64,000 nucleotides of DNA from Methanosarcina sp. Ant1 (GTDB lineage: Archaea; Halobacteriota; Methanosarcinia; Methanosarcinales; Methanosarcinaceae): NCBI GenBank assembly GCA_001714685.2, contig MDTP02000008.1, positions 1 to 64,000 of the forward strand. Direction: 5' to 3'. Numbering within the stretch: the stretch's first letter is position 1; the number at the start of each line of letters is the position of its first letter. The notes under the pieces are model-generated. The model was not told the DNA's origin and did no database searches. It saw only the letters and a list, made by a program, of their open reading frames with translations. The position numbers and the translations under genes are program-made. This document shows, in pieces, positions 921 through 20,658 of this stretch.

Positions 921-945
921 CTTTCCAGTGGAAATAAACGGGTCT
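921..945 (+). promoter_or_regulatory. Origin recognition box (ORB) for Orc1/Cdc6
   Basis: The segment reads TTTCCAGTGGAAATAAACGG then GTC. It has the dyad TTCCAGTGGAA followed by A-rich bases and a G-run, which is the layout of archaeal ORB/mini-ORB elements bound by Orc1/Cdc6. The G-run is short (GGG). It sits about 730 bp upstream of cdc6. Confidence 0.6.
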
Positions 946-1675: not shown

Positions 1676-2920
1676 ATGATAAAAGCTCAATCATTAGATG
1701 GCTTATTCGAAAAATTACTTGACGGAAAATCAATTTTCAAAAACAAAGAAGTTCTTCGGCCTTCTTACACGCCTGATCTTTTGTTACATCGGAATGAACA
1801 GATCAATAGTCTTGCCACAATCCTTGTTTCTGCACTCAGGGCAGAAACCCCTTCCAATGTGCTGATCTATGGGAAAACAGGAACAGGAAAGACTGCGGTG
1901 ACCCGTTATGTGGGAAAGGAACTTGAGAGGGTAAGTGAAGACAAGTCACTTTTTTGCTCTGTTGTGTATATTAATTGTGAAGTTATCGATACGCAGTACC
2001 GACTCCTTGCAAATCTTGCCAGACATTTCGAAGAAGAAGTTCCTATGACCGGGTGGCCGACTGATCAGGTCTTCACGAAGTTTAAGGAAGCAATTGATTC
2101 CCGAGAGCAGGTCATTATCATAATTCTGGACGAGATTGACAAGCTGATCAAAAAAGGCGATGATGTCCTCTATAATCTTTCCAGAATTAATACAGACCTG
2201 CGGAAAGCCAAGGTAAGTATGATAGGGGTTTCAAACGATCTAAAATTCACTGAGTTTCTAGATCCAAGGGTTAAAAGTTCCCTTGGTGAAGAGGAATTAA
2301 TTTTCCCACCTTATGATGCTGAGCAGATCAGCGATATCCTGAAGCAAAGGGCAAAAATGGCCTATAACGATGGAGTACTGGGTGAAATGGTAATTCCCCT
2401 ATGTGCTGCTTTTGCAGCCCAGGAACATGGCGATGCCCGCCGCGCACTTGATCTCCTGCGCGTATCAGGAGAAATTGCAGAAAGGGAAAATCAACCCCAG
2501 GTCCTTGAAGAACATGTCAGGCGTGCTCAGGAAAAGATCGAGGTTGACCGTGTAGTGGAAGTAGTAAGGACCCTCCCTACACAGTCCAAACTAGTGCTCT
2601 ATAGTATTATCTTGCTGCGGAGTCGGGGCAGAGAAGGTAAAAATGTTACAACCGGAGAAATGTACAATGTCTACCGCCAGCTCTGCCACCATATTGACGT
2701 GGATATTCTGACCCAGCGCAGAGTTACTGACCTGATGTCTGAACTTGATATGCTGGGTATAGTCAATGCAGTGGTCGTAAGCAAAGGTCGTTACGGCAGG
2801 ACAAAAGAAATTTCCCTTAGCGTTCCTGTAGAAAACACTCGCAAAGTGCTCCTTGAGGATTATAGGCTCAAGCCTCTTGTGGACTTTAAGGCTTCAGTTT
2901 TCAACAAGATGTTTTCATGA
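1676..2920 (+). CDS. cdc6: Orc1/Cdc6-family replication initiator ATPase
   Basis: Archaeal initiator that binds ORB sites and helps load the MCM helicase. The 414-aa protein has Walker A GKTGTGKT (residues 66-73), Walker B IIIILDEID (147-155), sensor 1 GVSND (184-188) and a sensor 2 segment GDARRALDLLR near 252, followed by a C-terminal winged-helix region. Length and domain order are normal for the family. The start has an AGAGG ribosome-binding site. Two tandem palindromes and an ORB lie upstream, so the gene sits beside its likely site of action. Autoregulation is plausible but inferred. Confidence 0.95.
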   Translation: MIKAQSLDGLFEKLLDGKSIFKNKEVLRPSYTPDLLLHRNEQINSLATILVSALRAETPSNVLIYGKTGTGKTAVTRYVGKELERVSEDKSLFCSVVYINCEVIDTQYRLLANLARHFEEEVPMTGWPTDQVFTKFKEAIDSREQVIIIILDEIDKLIKKGDDVLYNLSRINTDLRKAKVSMIGVSNDLKFTEFLDPRVKSSLGEEELIFPPYDAEQISDILKQRAKMAYNDGVLGEMVIPLCAAFAAQEHGDARRALDLLRVSGEIAERENQPQVLEEHVRRAQEKIEVDRVVEVVRTLPTQSKLVLYSIILLRSRGREGKNVTTGEMYNVYRQLCHHIDVDILTQRRVTDLMSELDMLGIVNAVVVSKGRYGRTKEISLSVPVENTRKVLLEDYRLKPLVDFKASVFNKMFS

Positions 2921-15007: not shown

Positions 15008-15637
15008 TCATTCGTAGTTCTCCCCTTCTTCTTGCTGACATTTTCCGCATAAGTACCTGCCATCCACGAATTTAAGGTCAAATGAATAAGTCTCACAGGA
15101 TTCACATACTCCTGTACTGAACTCATCTGAAATCTCTTCAATTGAGGGGATGGAGAGGAGAGCCTCCCGGTTCATATCAATAAGATCTTTGAGTATAGTA
15201 TTGAGCCCAGGTGTTACCATCAGAATATCAGTATTCGAAACCACCCCTATTATTGTATTATTCTCCAAAACTGGCAGCCTTTTGATATTTGCTTTCAACA
15301 TGATTTCGGAAGCTTCTATTACACTTGTTTCAGGCTCAACGGTTACCAGCGGAGTTGAGAGGATCTCGCTCGCCTTCATTTCACTTGGTCTTCTGTCCTT
15401 TGCAACGATATCCTCCACAAGATCCCTTTCAGTTATGATCCCCATGGCCTTTCCTTGTTCAGTAATGATAACGCTTCCTGCTTCGCGACTGACCATTTCC
15501 CTTGCAATAGCAGGAATATCTGAACTGATATCCATTATTATGACTGCTTTATTCATAATTTCAGCAACAGAGACTTCTCTCTCGATCTCTCTGTTGTGAA
15601 TATCAGTACCTATTTCCTTTTCAGGGTCATCTACCAT
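15008..15637 (-). CDS. Two-CBS-domain protein with C-terminal zinc ribbon (CBS cluster gene 1)
   Basis: This roughly 209-aa member has only one CBS pair (VAEIMNKAVIIMDISSDI and ILSTPLVTVEPETSV) and ends with CESCETY then CGKCQ, a CxxC-x15-CxxC zinc ribbon. CBS plus zinc-ribbon proteins are known in archaea; the ribbon suggests contact with nucleic acid or protein. I place the start at ATG 15637, preceded by GGGGGAA; an in-frame GTG at 15685 would add 16 residues. A 14-bp tandem array lies 84 bp upstream. First gene of the CBS cluster. Confidence 0.85.
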   Translation of the reverse strand: MVDDPEKEIGTDIHNREIEREVSVAEIMNKAVIIMDISSDIPAIAREMVSREAGSVIITEQGKAMGIITERDLVEDIVAKDRRPSEMKASEILSTPLVTVEPETSVIEASEIMLKANIKRLPVLENNTIIGVVSNTDILMVTPGLNTILKDLIDMNREALLSIPSIEEISDEFSTGVCESCETYSFDLKFVDGRYLCGKCQQEEGENYE

Positions 15638-15713
15638 TGACTGCCGTTCCCCCTTTACCTTCAACCTTCCAAACCGGCAATTCACAATATAAAATCTCTT
15701 CAGACTTCCGGTT

Positions 15714-15851
15714 TCCTTTGGAAAATCTCCTTTGGAAAATCTCCTTTGGAAAATCTCCTTTGGAAAATCTCCTTTGGAAAATCTCCTTTGGAAAATCTCC
15801 TTTGGAAAATCTCCTTTGGAAAATCTCCTTTGGAAAATCTCCTTTGGAAAA
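15714..15851. repeat. 14-bp perfect tandem array (about 9.8 copies)
   Basis: The unit GAAAATCTCCTTTG is repeated nine times without mismatch from 15721 to 15846, with partial copies on both sides. There are no spacers, so it is not a CRISPR. It lies in the promoter/leader position of the zinc-ribbon CBS gene. Open frames across it exist only because of the repeat. Confidence 0.95.
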
Positions 15852-16191
15852 TTTTCCTGTCAAAAAACATTCCAGATTGCTTTCGTTTGCCCTCTTAATT
15901 CAGGCCCGAAATTATAACTTTTCAAATCATGGATTCAGGTGAATATGTTGTTTCCAGATGTATTTTCTTGTCCGCTCCCTCTAAGCTGTCATTCCCGCAC
16001 TTTTCGGACGTTTTTATGGCATTTACATCTCATTTATATATACGAATCAATGGTACATAATGATAACGGGAATTGTTTTAATGGGGTTTGTTTTTTTGTA
16101 AGACCTGAAGCCTGCATAAGTCAAAAGTGCATTTTTGATATTTCCGCAGTGTGCCTTTGCTGCTTGATTCTAGTGAAAAATATATGAAAGT

Positions 16192-16236
16192 CCTACAGGA
16201 AATTTTTCAGAACCCCCATGTTTCCACTGGAGATTT
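16192..16236 (-). promoter_or_regulatory. ORB-like element, copy 1
   Basis: The minus strand reads TCTCCAGTGGAAACATGGGG then GTT: a TCCAGTGGA dyad, A-rich bases and a G5 run, a close match to archaeal ORBs. It is part of a repeat of about 45 bp, starting with ACAGGAAATTTTTC on the plus strand, that recurs at 16373. Confidence 0.65.
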
Positions 16237-16372
16237 TTGCTGAGAATGAAAAAATACCTAAATCGTCTGAAGAAGATATCAGGAAGAAGTGCAGAAGAAA
16301 AGTATATTTCAGAAAACAGGTTTATACAGTTCAAAAACAACCTAAATTATATTTCTAATGGTATTGACTTTT

Positions 16373-16416
16373 CTCACAGGAAATTTTTCGGACCCCCCCA
16401 TTTCTACTGGAAACGA
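16373..16416 (-). promoter_or_regulatory. ORB-like element, copy 2
   Basis: The minus strand reads TTTCCAGTAGAAATGGGGGG then GTCC, with a G7 run. It shares the flanking ACAGGAAATTTTTC with copy 1, in the same orientation and about 180 bp away. Two ORBs in one orientation flanking AT-rich DNA resemble an origin or a Cdc6-binding regulatory region. Confidence 0.65.
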
Positions 16417-16461: not shown

Positions 16462-16592
16462 GAGCCTATCCGAAAAGTGCTTACCTGCTATAACTTTTAC
16501 AATATGCAATATGCAAAACCGGAACGGATACTCCGATATTATAGACATATTGTGACTTTTCAACATGCATTACTGACTTTCCGGATGGGCTC
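16462..16592. mobile_element. MITE-like element, 131 bp with terminal inverted repeats
   Basis: The ends are GAGCCTATCCGAAAAGT and, inverted, GAGCCCATCCGGAAAGT (15 of 17 identical). The element is flanked on both sides by TAA (16459-16461 and 16593-16595), consistent with a 3-bp target duplication. It has no transposase. The terminal sequence and TNA-type duplication resemble IS5-group elements, so it was probably mobilised by a transposase encoded elsewhere. Family assignment is inference. Confidence 0.65.
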
Positions 16593-16647: not shown

Positions 16648-18102
16648 TTAGAGTATAATCACTCTGCTCCGGTTCCCAACACTCAGCTCGATTTCTTCGT
16701 TCAGGCCAGATTTGGCATAAGCGTTAATGATCTGGATTTCGGAGTCGATATCAAGATCCTCGATAACATAAGCTTGATCTCCCCATAGAGTTAGTTTGAT
16801 ACTGCCTGTTTTGTCCTTGAGTTCGAGATTTGCGACCACATTTTCGGTTCCATCTTCCCGTTCAAACTCCCGGAGTTCTCCTATTTCTGAGACCTTCCCC
16901 TGGACTGAATAACTTTCCCCTGGGATAATATCTGCAATATTTGTGATTTTTTCACTGTACTCAACCTTTTTTTCGGTCTTCTGGATGATTCCTCTGGATC
17001 CCAGGTTCAGTTCTATCTGCTGGTTGAAGGCATTTTCTCGAGAATAAGCATGGAGAACTTCTATGGTCTCGTCAAAATCAATTTCATCAAGGAAATCGGT
17101 TTTTTCATCCCAGAGTGTCAGCCTGATTTTGCCCGTGGGATCGCCGAGAAGGAGATTTCCTACTCTACCTGCAGACCCGTCTTTTTTCTCAAAAGTCCGG
17201 ATTTCCGCAACATCAAGTACCCTTCCGGAGATGTTAATATTATCCGCATCAGCCTTGATATCCGCAATCGGGGTAAATTTTTCTTGGTACTCGACTTTTT
17301 TTTCACTTTTCCTGATTATACTTCGGTTTCCGATCTGGAGTTCTACCTTTTGAGTAAAGGCGTTTTCCCGGGCATAAGCATTGACTATCTCTACAGTATC
17401 CCCGTATTCCAGCTGGTTCAAAAATTCGGTCTTTTCATCCCAGAGAGTCACCCTGAGTGTGCCTGTAGCATCTCCCATCAGTAAATTTCCTACCCTCCCG
17501 GTGCTTCCGTCCTTCTTCTGGAAGGTTCGAACTTCAGAAATTTCAAGGACATTTGCTGTCAGGTTCAGGTCTCCCATGCCATCCTTGATGTCCTTTATCT
17601 TCTGGCTGCTCGCAGCCACATCGATTTCCTCTTCACTTTCGGTCAAGACACCATTGTTTCCGACATTGACTTCGACTCCAGAGTATCCTTGCTTTGCATA
17701 GCCGCTGATCTGGAGGTTTTGTCCTGCCTTAACTTTTTCAGCTTTTATCAGGTCTGCCATATTATCCCAGAGAGTTACCCGAATTTTCCCTGTTTCATCT
17801 CCAACAATCAGGTTTCCTACTCTACCTATAGTCCCATCGTTTCGGGTGAATTCTTTGGTATCAAAAACTGAAACTACCCTCGCAACAAAACTAACTGGCC
17901 CGCTCTCAGCTGTGATATTTCCAATTTTCACACTGTCCCGACCTACATCTGAAAATCCAAGCTCGTTGGCAACCAGCATGGCAGCCATAGGTTCATCGCA
18001 AAGCCCTCCCATATTCTCAACCTTATCCTGGATACGTTGCAGGAAGTCTTCCTTACTTATTAAATGGCTGAGCTTTTTATAGATCGATTCAATATCTGTC
18101 AT
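16648..18102 (-). CDS. rpa1: Replication protein A, four OB folds (RPA1 type)
   Basis: The 484-aa single-stranded DNA-binding protein has an N-terminal helical region (about 1-60) and four tandem OB-fold repeats. Each carries a version of GRVGNLLxGDxTGxxRxTLWD; the second and third are most alike, the fourth more diverged. This organisation and length match Methanosarcina RPA1, which binds DNA without a zinc finger. It protects ssDNA in replication and repair. GGGGATA precedes the ATG. Its 3' end faces the ORB pair and MITE, placing it near other replication signals. Confidence 0.93.
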   Translation of the reverse strand: MTDIESIYKKLSHLISKEDFLQRIQDKVENMGGLCDEPMAAMLVANELGFSDVGRDSVKIGNITAESGPVSFVARVVSVFDTKEFTRNDGTIGRVGNLIVGDETGKIRVTLWDNMADLIKAEKVKAGQNLQISGYAKQGYSGVEVNVGNNGVLTESEEEIDVAASSQKIKDIKDGMGDLNLTANVLEISEVRTFQKKDGSTGRVGNLLMGDATGTLRVTLWDEKTEFLNQLEYGDTVEIVNAYARENAFTQKVELQIGNRSIIRKSEKKVEYQEKFTPIADIKADADNINISGRVLDVAEIRTFEKKDGSAGRVGNLLLGDPTGKIRLTLWDEKTDFLDEIDFDETIEVLHAYSRENAFNQQIELNLGSRGIIQKTEKKVEYSEKITNIADIIPGESYSVQGKVSEIGELREFEREDGTENVVANLELKDKTGSIKLTLWGDQAYVIEDLDIDSEIQIINAYAKSGLNEEIELSVGNRSRVIIL

Positions 18103-19662: not shown

Positions 19663-20658
19663 TCAGTTCACGGATACTTCAAAAAGGCCTTTCTTTTCCT
19701 CTATCTTGAATTTCACGTCTAGAAATTGTTCAGTGATCCAGATATTTGTTGCAGTATGAAGAGAAAGTTCCCTGACAGTGTAAGAACTATTTCCTGCAAG
19801 AGCCATATATGGGATCAGCTGATCTGCCAGATGTATGTCCACAGAGCTCCCTGCACTCATTTCGGAGATAATTTCTTCTGCAGCATGTTTGCCTACCTTT
19901 TCTGCAGGAAGCCCCCTCTCCCCAAGAGCGCTTCCCCCTAGAAAGCCTGCCCATAAGGTTATTCCACTTCCAGTTGAAAAAGCCTCAAAGGATTTGGTTT
20001 CAATCTGGGATGGGTATCCAGCTTCCTGAAGCCTAATTCTGGCAGCTTCTGCCTGGCGCAAAGGCACATGAGCCGGAAGATTCGAAGCATGAGAAATTCC
20101 TCTTATTTCGTCCTCTTCTTTTAAAAAATGAAATCCTTGAAGCCTGCATGGTTCAAAAGAAGCTGAAACTCTACCTCCTCCCTTCGGGTAGTAACCATGT
20201 TCCTTTAGGACCACTTTGCCTGCATAGCCCAGTTGTTCCAGAGCCTTAAAAGTTACTTGCTGCAGGTAGTCCATTGTCGGAGCCCAGGCCACATCAGTTC
20301 CTCCCCTTATCGTGAGTTCGACCTTTTCTTTTGCAAAAGGCAGGGCAGGCATAAGACACTGGAGAAACAGGGTTATGCTTCCTGCGGTTCCGATATTAAT
20401 ATCATATTTGCCCCCCTTTATTTCCACTGGAGCAAAGGAGAGCTCTGTTGAACCTGGAAAAAGCCCCGAAACTCGAGCTTTACAGATTCTGGCTGCAGTT
20501 TCCAGAGCTTTTAAATGCTGTTGCTTCAAGCCTGGATTTTGTCTGTTTTTTCTAATCTTTGTGACTCTGATCTCTCTTCCCGTGACTGCGGAAAGAGCAA
20601 CAGCGGTCCTGACTAATTGGCCTCCACCCTCCCCGTAAGAGCCGTCAATTTCTAACAT
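19663..20658 (-). CDS. rtcA: RNA 3'-terminal phosphate cyclase
   Basis: Converts RNA 3'-phosphate ends to 2',3'-cyclic phosphate using ATP through an adenylated histidine. The 331-aa protein begins with DGSYGEGGGQLVRTAVALSA, the family signature, and carries the C-terminal HLADQL motif with the expected nucleophile His near residue 276. Length is typical. It converges with kptA, leaving 88 bp between the stop codons, so two RNA 2'/3' end-modifying enzymes are adjacent. No ribosome-binding site of note. Confidence 0.94.
   Translation of the reverse strand: MLEIDGSYGEGGGQLVRTAVALSAVTGREIRVTKIRKNRQNPGLKQQHLKALETAARICKARVSGLFPGSTELSFAPVEIKGGKYDINIGTAGSITLFLQCLMPALPFAKEKVELTIRGGTDVAWAPTMDYLQQVTFKALEQLGYAGKVVLKEHGYYPKGGGRVSASFEPCRLQGFHFLKEEDEIRGISHASNLPAHVPLRQAEAARIRLQEAGYPSQIETKSFEAFSTGSGITLWAGFLGGSALGERGLPAEKVGKHAAEEIISEMSAGSSVDIHLADQLIPYMALAGNSSYTVRELSLHTATNIWITEQFLDVKFKIEEKKGLFEVSVN

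Follow-up and report, generated by a model that had tools for sequence, protein, structure and literature searches.

The datA locus of Escherichia coli is a non-origin locus that titrates DnaA and thereby restrains re-initiation. Among the archaea, the ORB-rich oriC2D region of Haloarcula hispanica is devoid of ARS activity and restrains oriC2, for which titration of Cdc6 has been proposed; it holds 11 ORBs within 722 bp directly after cdc6E, and two ORBs already have a partial effect (PMC3936714). For Methanosarcina mazei, a single origin upstream of cdc6 was predicted by Z-curve analysis, a prediction cited in PMC5333045 and PMC4164010. The origin count in M. mazei is known in silico only (PMC5333045), and initiation control is all but unmapped in methanogens whose origin is linked to cdc6. 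Here we compare with these systems a pair of direct repeats beside the RPA gene of Methanosarcina sp. Ant1, situated in a contiguous stretch of 64,000 nucleotides that was analysed as a whole (the window). Judged from the sequences of the window and its relatives, this pair forms a conserved ORB site that is a satellite of the origin and not the origin itself. The features of the window on which the comparison depends are as follows.

1 to 1675, no strand assigned: right-hand part of oriC, 73% A+T; the remaining ORB cluster is expected in an assembly gap
924 to 943, plus strand: cdc6-side ORB TCCAGTGGAAATAAACGGGT with a G3 run, the only visible member of the oriC cluster
1676 to 2920, plus strand: orc1/cdc6, 414 aa, putative ORB-binding initiator (Pfam Cdc6_C, 4.5e-32, and Cdc6_lid)
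15008 to 15685, minus strand: CBS-domain gene, immediate neighbour of RPA on the 3' side, with the ORB pair in its upstream region
16033 to 16069, no strand assigned: TATA-plus-block TTTATATATACGAATCAATGGTACATAATGATAACGG / TATATACGAGTCAATGGTACATAATGATAACGG, conserved, promoter-like, single copy in the genome
16195 to 16236, minus strand: satellite ORB R1, farther from RPA, minus-strand reading TCCAGTGGAAACATGGGGGTTCTGAAAAATTTCCTGT with a G5 run
16376 to 16416, minus strand: satellite ORB R2, nearer RPA, minus-strand reading TCCAGTAGAAATGGGGGGGTCCGAAAAATTTCCTGT with a G7 run
16648 to 18102, minus strand: RPA, 484 aa, several OB folds, with the ORB pair 3' of the gene
19663 to 20658, minus strand: RNA 3'-terminal phosphate cyclase gene (Pfam RTC, 8e-84), host of an intragenic ORB
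20412 to 20431, minus strand: intragenic ORB TCCAGTGGAAATAAAGGGGG of the RNA-cyclase gene, oriented like the pair

The proteins encoded by cdc6 and RPA in the window are 96-99% and 81-90% identical, respectively, to their counterparts elsewhere in the genus, and the window therefore comes from a Methanosarcina-type genome. An earlier note on this DNA had described two ORB-bearing direct repeats beside the RPA gene, about 180 bp apart in the same orientation and 14 kb from cdc6, and this description holds in full: ACAGGAAATTTTTC occurs twice in the window (16195-16208 and 16376-16389), both copies read as ORBs on the minus strand, their start-to-start distance is 181 bp, and 14.5-14.7 kb separate them from cdc6. 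The two boxes share 91% identity over a 23-nt core and flank a stretch of 139 bp that is 71% A+T; they are direct in all relatives. Their identity as ORBs is likewise borne out. An ORB motif for Methanomicrobia, published independently of this analysis, is TCCA[GC]T[GT]GAAA[CT][AG]A[AT]GGGGT (PMC4164010). The window repeats differ from it by 2 and 3 mismatches and many orthologous copies by 0-1, and the whole 4.29-Mb assembly contains the core CCAGTRGAAANNNGGGG without mismatch at R1 and R2 only. A reversed control pattern scanned across the genus gave 0 matches in most genomes and a maximum of 2, so that the ORB matches are not due to chance. A longer pattern of 36 bp, applied genus-wide, matched the window only and was too strict. 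Both boxes carry a common 3' extension, TCTGAAAAATTTCCTGTGAG, and an extension of the form GGGGT(T/C)(C/T)TGAAAAATTTCCTG(TGAG) characterises the RPA pair, the boxes at oriC having other extensions. A search of Rfam with the region from 15.0 to 17.0 kb of the window returned no match at threshold. A perfect 12-bp inverted repeat (GCACTTTTCGGA / TCCGAAAAGTGC, 15997-16008 and 16469-16480) lies on either side of the ORB pair, its left arm being partly conserved among relatives.

The earlier note had named a lack of conservation in relatives as an outcome that would count against it, and the relatives show the opposite. We inspected the region 3' of RPA in 30 Methanosarcina loci, two of which are broken by contig ends, and found two ORBs in the same orientation in 27 of the 28 genomes with enough sequence, the exception being a bog genome with a single box. 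Apart from three of these pairs (173, 168 and 247 bp), R1 and R2 are spaced 177-180 bp apart. The pair also occurs in three sister lineages of the Methanosarcinaceae (L282, L284, L286), and all four Ca. Methanoperedens records have a single ORB on the RPA strand, 27-28 bp past the RPA stop and about 155 bp ahead of the radA start, which is exact in three of them; in one Ca. Methanoperedens genome RPA lies about 6 kb from cdc6, the oriC geometry there being taken from match coordinates only. The region 3' of RPA yielded no box in Methanolobus, Methanococcoides, Methanomethylovorans, Methanosalsum or Methanohalophilus. In one genome (G010), a third ORB in direct orientation stands between the pair and RPA, at a distance of about 575 bp from the former. 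On the other side of the pair, the TATA-plus-block stands about 350 bp before the CBS-domain gene and keeps a distance of 145-169 bp to R1 in most relatives, whereas R2 lies anywhere from about 83 to 706 bp from the RPA stop; pair and promoter-like block move together as a unit. Farther along, upstream of the CBS-domain gene, lies a tandem array with a 14-bp unit, CTTTGGAAAATCTC (15715-15855).

The origin itself has to be sought beside cdc6. An ORB cluster that includes an inverted box is the usual layout of archaeal origins, and complete relatives have 4-5 ORBs from 0.6 to 6.7 kb upstream of cdc6, one of them inverted against the others. Only one box is visible near cdc6 in the window because its contig (C8) starts 1675 bp upstream of the gene. 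Another contig of the assembly, C70, carries the far side of the oriC region in its last 440 bp, with no further box assembled; the assembly breaks inside the oriC core, C70 and C8 flanking a missing ORB cluster whose presence is predicted from the relatives, most of their boxes being located in the part that is absent here. The earlier note had rated the repeats as better ORBs than the single site next to cdc6. The G runs do differ as it described (G5 and G7 against G3), but the single site is an effect of the contig end, and the comparison was therefore made with a truncated oriC.

Strand asymmetry places the origin at cdc6 as well. Skew reflects the long-term average of origin use. In 11 complete relatives, the T-A skew calculated from 4-fold sites with a correction for gene strand has a value of -0.08 on the left side of cdc6; from cdc6 to RPA it is +0.08, and past RPA it is +0.08 to +0.10. 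The best change-point falls -2 to 0 kb from the start of cdc6 (bootstrap -5 to -2 kb), and none of 500 bootstrap replicates placed it at 10 kb or farther, none of them at RPA. The interval from cdc6 to RPA has the positive sign of the right arm in 12 of 12 genomes including the window (+0.116), and in these same 12 genomes the corrected skew does not change sign at RPA. Given this change-point and the positive interval, the RPA pair sits inside the right arm. The left side of one genome with an anomalous left arm (G008) was excluded from the change-point fit; its skew to the left of cdc6 has the right-arm sign, possibly owing to an inversion or an assembly join near oriC. Neither the raw GC skew of 11 genomes between -38 and +58 kb nor sparse sampling of skew along the whole chromosome of one genome gave a clean signal, both being confounded by gene orientation.

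The pair is not the only site of its kind outside oriC. Strict ORBs are few and tend to be grouped: of the 59 present in nine complete genomes, 57 lie at oriC, at the RPA pair, in the RNA-cyclase gene or in a distal cluster. The RNA-cyclase ORB could be a coincidence of the coding sequence (P-V-E-I-K-G), an explanation that we reject on the grounds of third-position conservation, which extends across the family: in 35 sequences it reaches 0.96 over the ORB, where the gene averages 0.55, and ranks first among 323 windows of the gene, and at the codon preceding the ORB the amino acid varies, yet the common codons all keep a third-base T. A further ORB-like site lies about 20 kb to the left of cdc6 (contig C70, around 24509; -20 to -28 kb in relatives), antisense within a gene; its third-position conservation is 0.92 versus 0.71 in 9 genomes, the codon in the variable spacer of the ORB varying while the remaining codons are constant. 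Both intragenic sites are best read as ORBs under selection as DNA. A site at +54 kb, in an AroE-like gene, is weakly supported (4 sequences, with 8.5% of windows equally good). All ORB-like sites that lie less than 60 kb from cdc6 and outside the oriC cluster point towards cdc6 in the 12 genomes, on the plus strand to its left and on the minus strand to its right, the number of independent sites being small. The distal cluster is conserved as well and as a rule comprises 2-3 boxes in direct orientation. It lies where radical-SAM and DeoC-like genes converge, beside a dCTP deaminase, and its distance from cdc6 is mostly 275-700 kb; in the present assembly it is the following.

Contig C113, 13125, 13412 and 14163, minus strand: boxes of the distal cluster

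Around this cluster the skew differs among the 8 genomes compared, with a minus-to-plus switch in three, none in three and a mixed picture in two, and speaks neither for nor against a second origin there.

Three readings of the pair had been offered in the earlier note: the true origin, a second origin, or DNA regulated by Cdc6. A true chromosomal origin at the pair, with a secondary site beside cdc6, is suggested by the window taken by itself, where the G runs are longer at the RPA boxes, but this is hardly tenable when the asymmetry switches at cdc6 and not at RPA and relatives have a full ORB cluster with an inverted box at cdc6. The pair moreover lacks two features of an oriC, since no initiator gene adjoins it, cdc6 being 14.5 kb away, and strand asymmetry does not switch there. 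A second origin in regular use finds no support, the skew being unchanged across RPA. A secondary, dormant or rarely used origin seems to us unlikely too: two good ORBs flanking an intergenic, A+T-rich stretch near replication genes would suit it, and dormant origins are known from Haloferax mediterranei (PMC4595724), but the interval between cdc6 and RPA has the sign of the sequence beyond RPA in every genome, the boxes are direct and not inverted, and the canonical cluster is at cdc6. This leaves Cdc6-regulated or Cdc6-bound DNA as the surviving option of the three.

Within that option, regulation could mean that Cdc6 or a paralogue binds the pair as an operator for the promoter-like block leading into the CBS-domain gene. 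The fixed distance between pair and block beside a variable distance to the RPA stop, the uniqueness of the block in the genome and the position of the Ca. Methanoperedens ORB ahead of radA all argue for such a function, and the constant distance in particular keeps transcription control under consideration; we nevertheless regard it as somewhat unlikely, given that the downstream gene depends on the lineage (CBS or radA) and that the other conserved satellites are intragenic or lie between convergent genes, without promoters. Since those satellites have no promoter, we favour a general part for the sites in the control of replication. A different role, which we hold to be improbable, would be to organise or segregate the origin region in a parS-like manner, by polar, oriC-pointing Cdc6 sites within about 25 kb on either side. 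The uniform polarity near cdc6 is consistent with this role, as are R1-R2 spacings of 177-180 bp (close to 17 helical turns) and 167-168 bp (close to 16), but the independent sites are few and mostly co-inherited, the phasing does not hold for spacings of 173, 247 and 135 bp, in 2 of 8 genomes the distal cluster points the opposite way, and we know of no partner protein.

The explanation that we prefer, with about even confidence, is that the pair and its counterparts are non-origin Cdc6-binding satellite sites that modulate oriC, perhaps by titration. Cdc6 made beside oriC would also bind the RPA pair, the RNA-cyclase ORB and the other satellites; these, being close to oriC, would be duplicated just after firing and would then take up Cdc6, damping re-initiation in a manner similar to that of oriC2D and datA. 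In favour of these satellite sites we count the match to the published motif, the conservation of the pair with its spacing and direct orientation, the concentration of strict ORBs at a few places, the third-position conservation of the intragenic boxes, the skew switch at cdc6 and the precedent of oriC2D, as well as the presence of ORBs off oriC but on the same replicon and near an initiator gene, as expected of a titration region. A dense ORB cluster, however, is not seen, there being 2 boxes in about 220 bp together with scattered single sites, and two or three boxes are few against the 11 of oriC2D. The near-constant distance to the promoter-like block would be needless for a pure titration site, and the absence of the RPA-side boxes from Methanolobus, Methanococcoides, Methanomethylovorans and other members of the family also counts against the satellite explanation. 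More tentatively, and with more doubt than conviction, we suggest that the Methanosarcinaceae keep a polarised set of satellite boxes around oriC, some of them in coding genes under nucleotide-level selection, which would form a cis-acting system, new in this form, that couples Cdc6 to control of the origin domain (timing of initiation, or organisation and segregation) and is anchored at the RPA gene. A literature search that was thin on subscription papers found no report of satellite ORBs in Methanosarcina, and this novelty is provisional. A small conserved set of boxes off oriC provides a defined list of sites at which titration and origin-domain architecture can be told apart; it also means that predicting origins from ORBs could yield false ones here, where skew can help to distinguish origins from satellites.

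In relation to the described systems, the RPA pair has the same ORB core and presumably the same initiator as the Methanosarcina oriC, but oriC has 4-5 boxes with one inverted, whereas the pair is direct, has a 3' extension of its own and is without a skew switch. The case of boxes in DP1 is similar in that initiator boxes are tied to a replication gene near oriC; the gene is a different one, as the boxes of the window lie 3' of RPA and inside the RNA-cyclase gene. The pair would resemble datA as a proposed non-origin initiator-binding locus, although initiator and boxes are unrelated. With oriC2D it has in common that ORBs are found off the origin core and near an initiator gene, oriC2D having no origin activity and the pair no origin-type skew switch; it differs in consisting of 2 boxes 15 kb away beside RPA, accompanied by intragenic and distal sites, and in belonging to another archaeal lineage.
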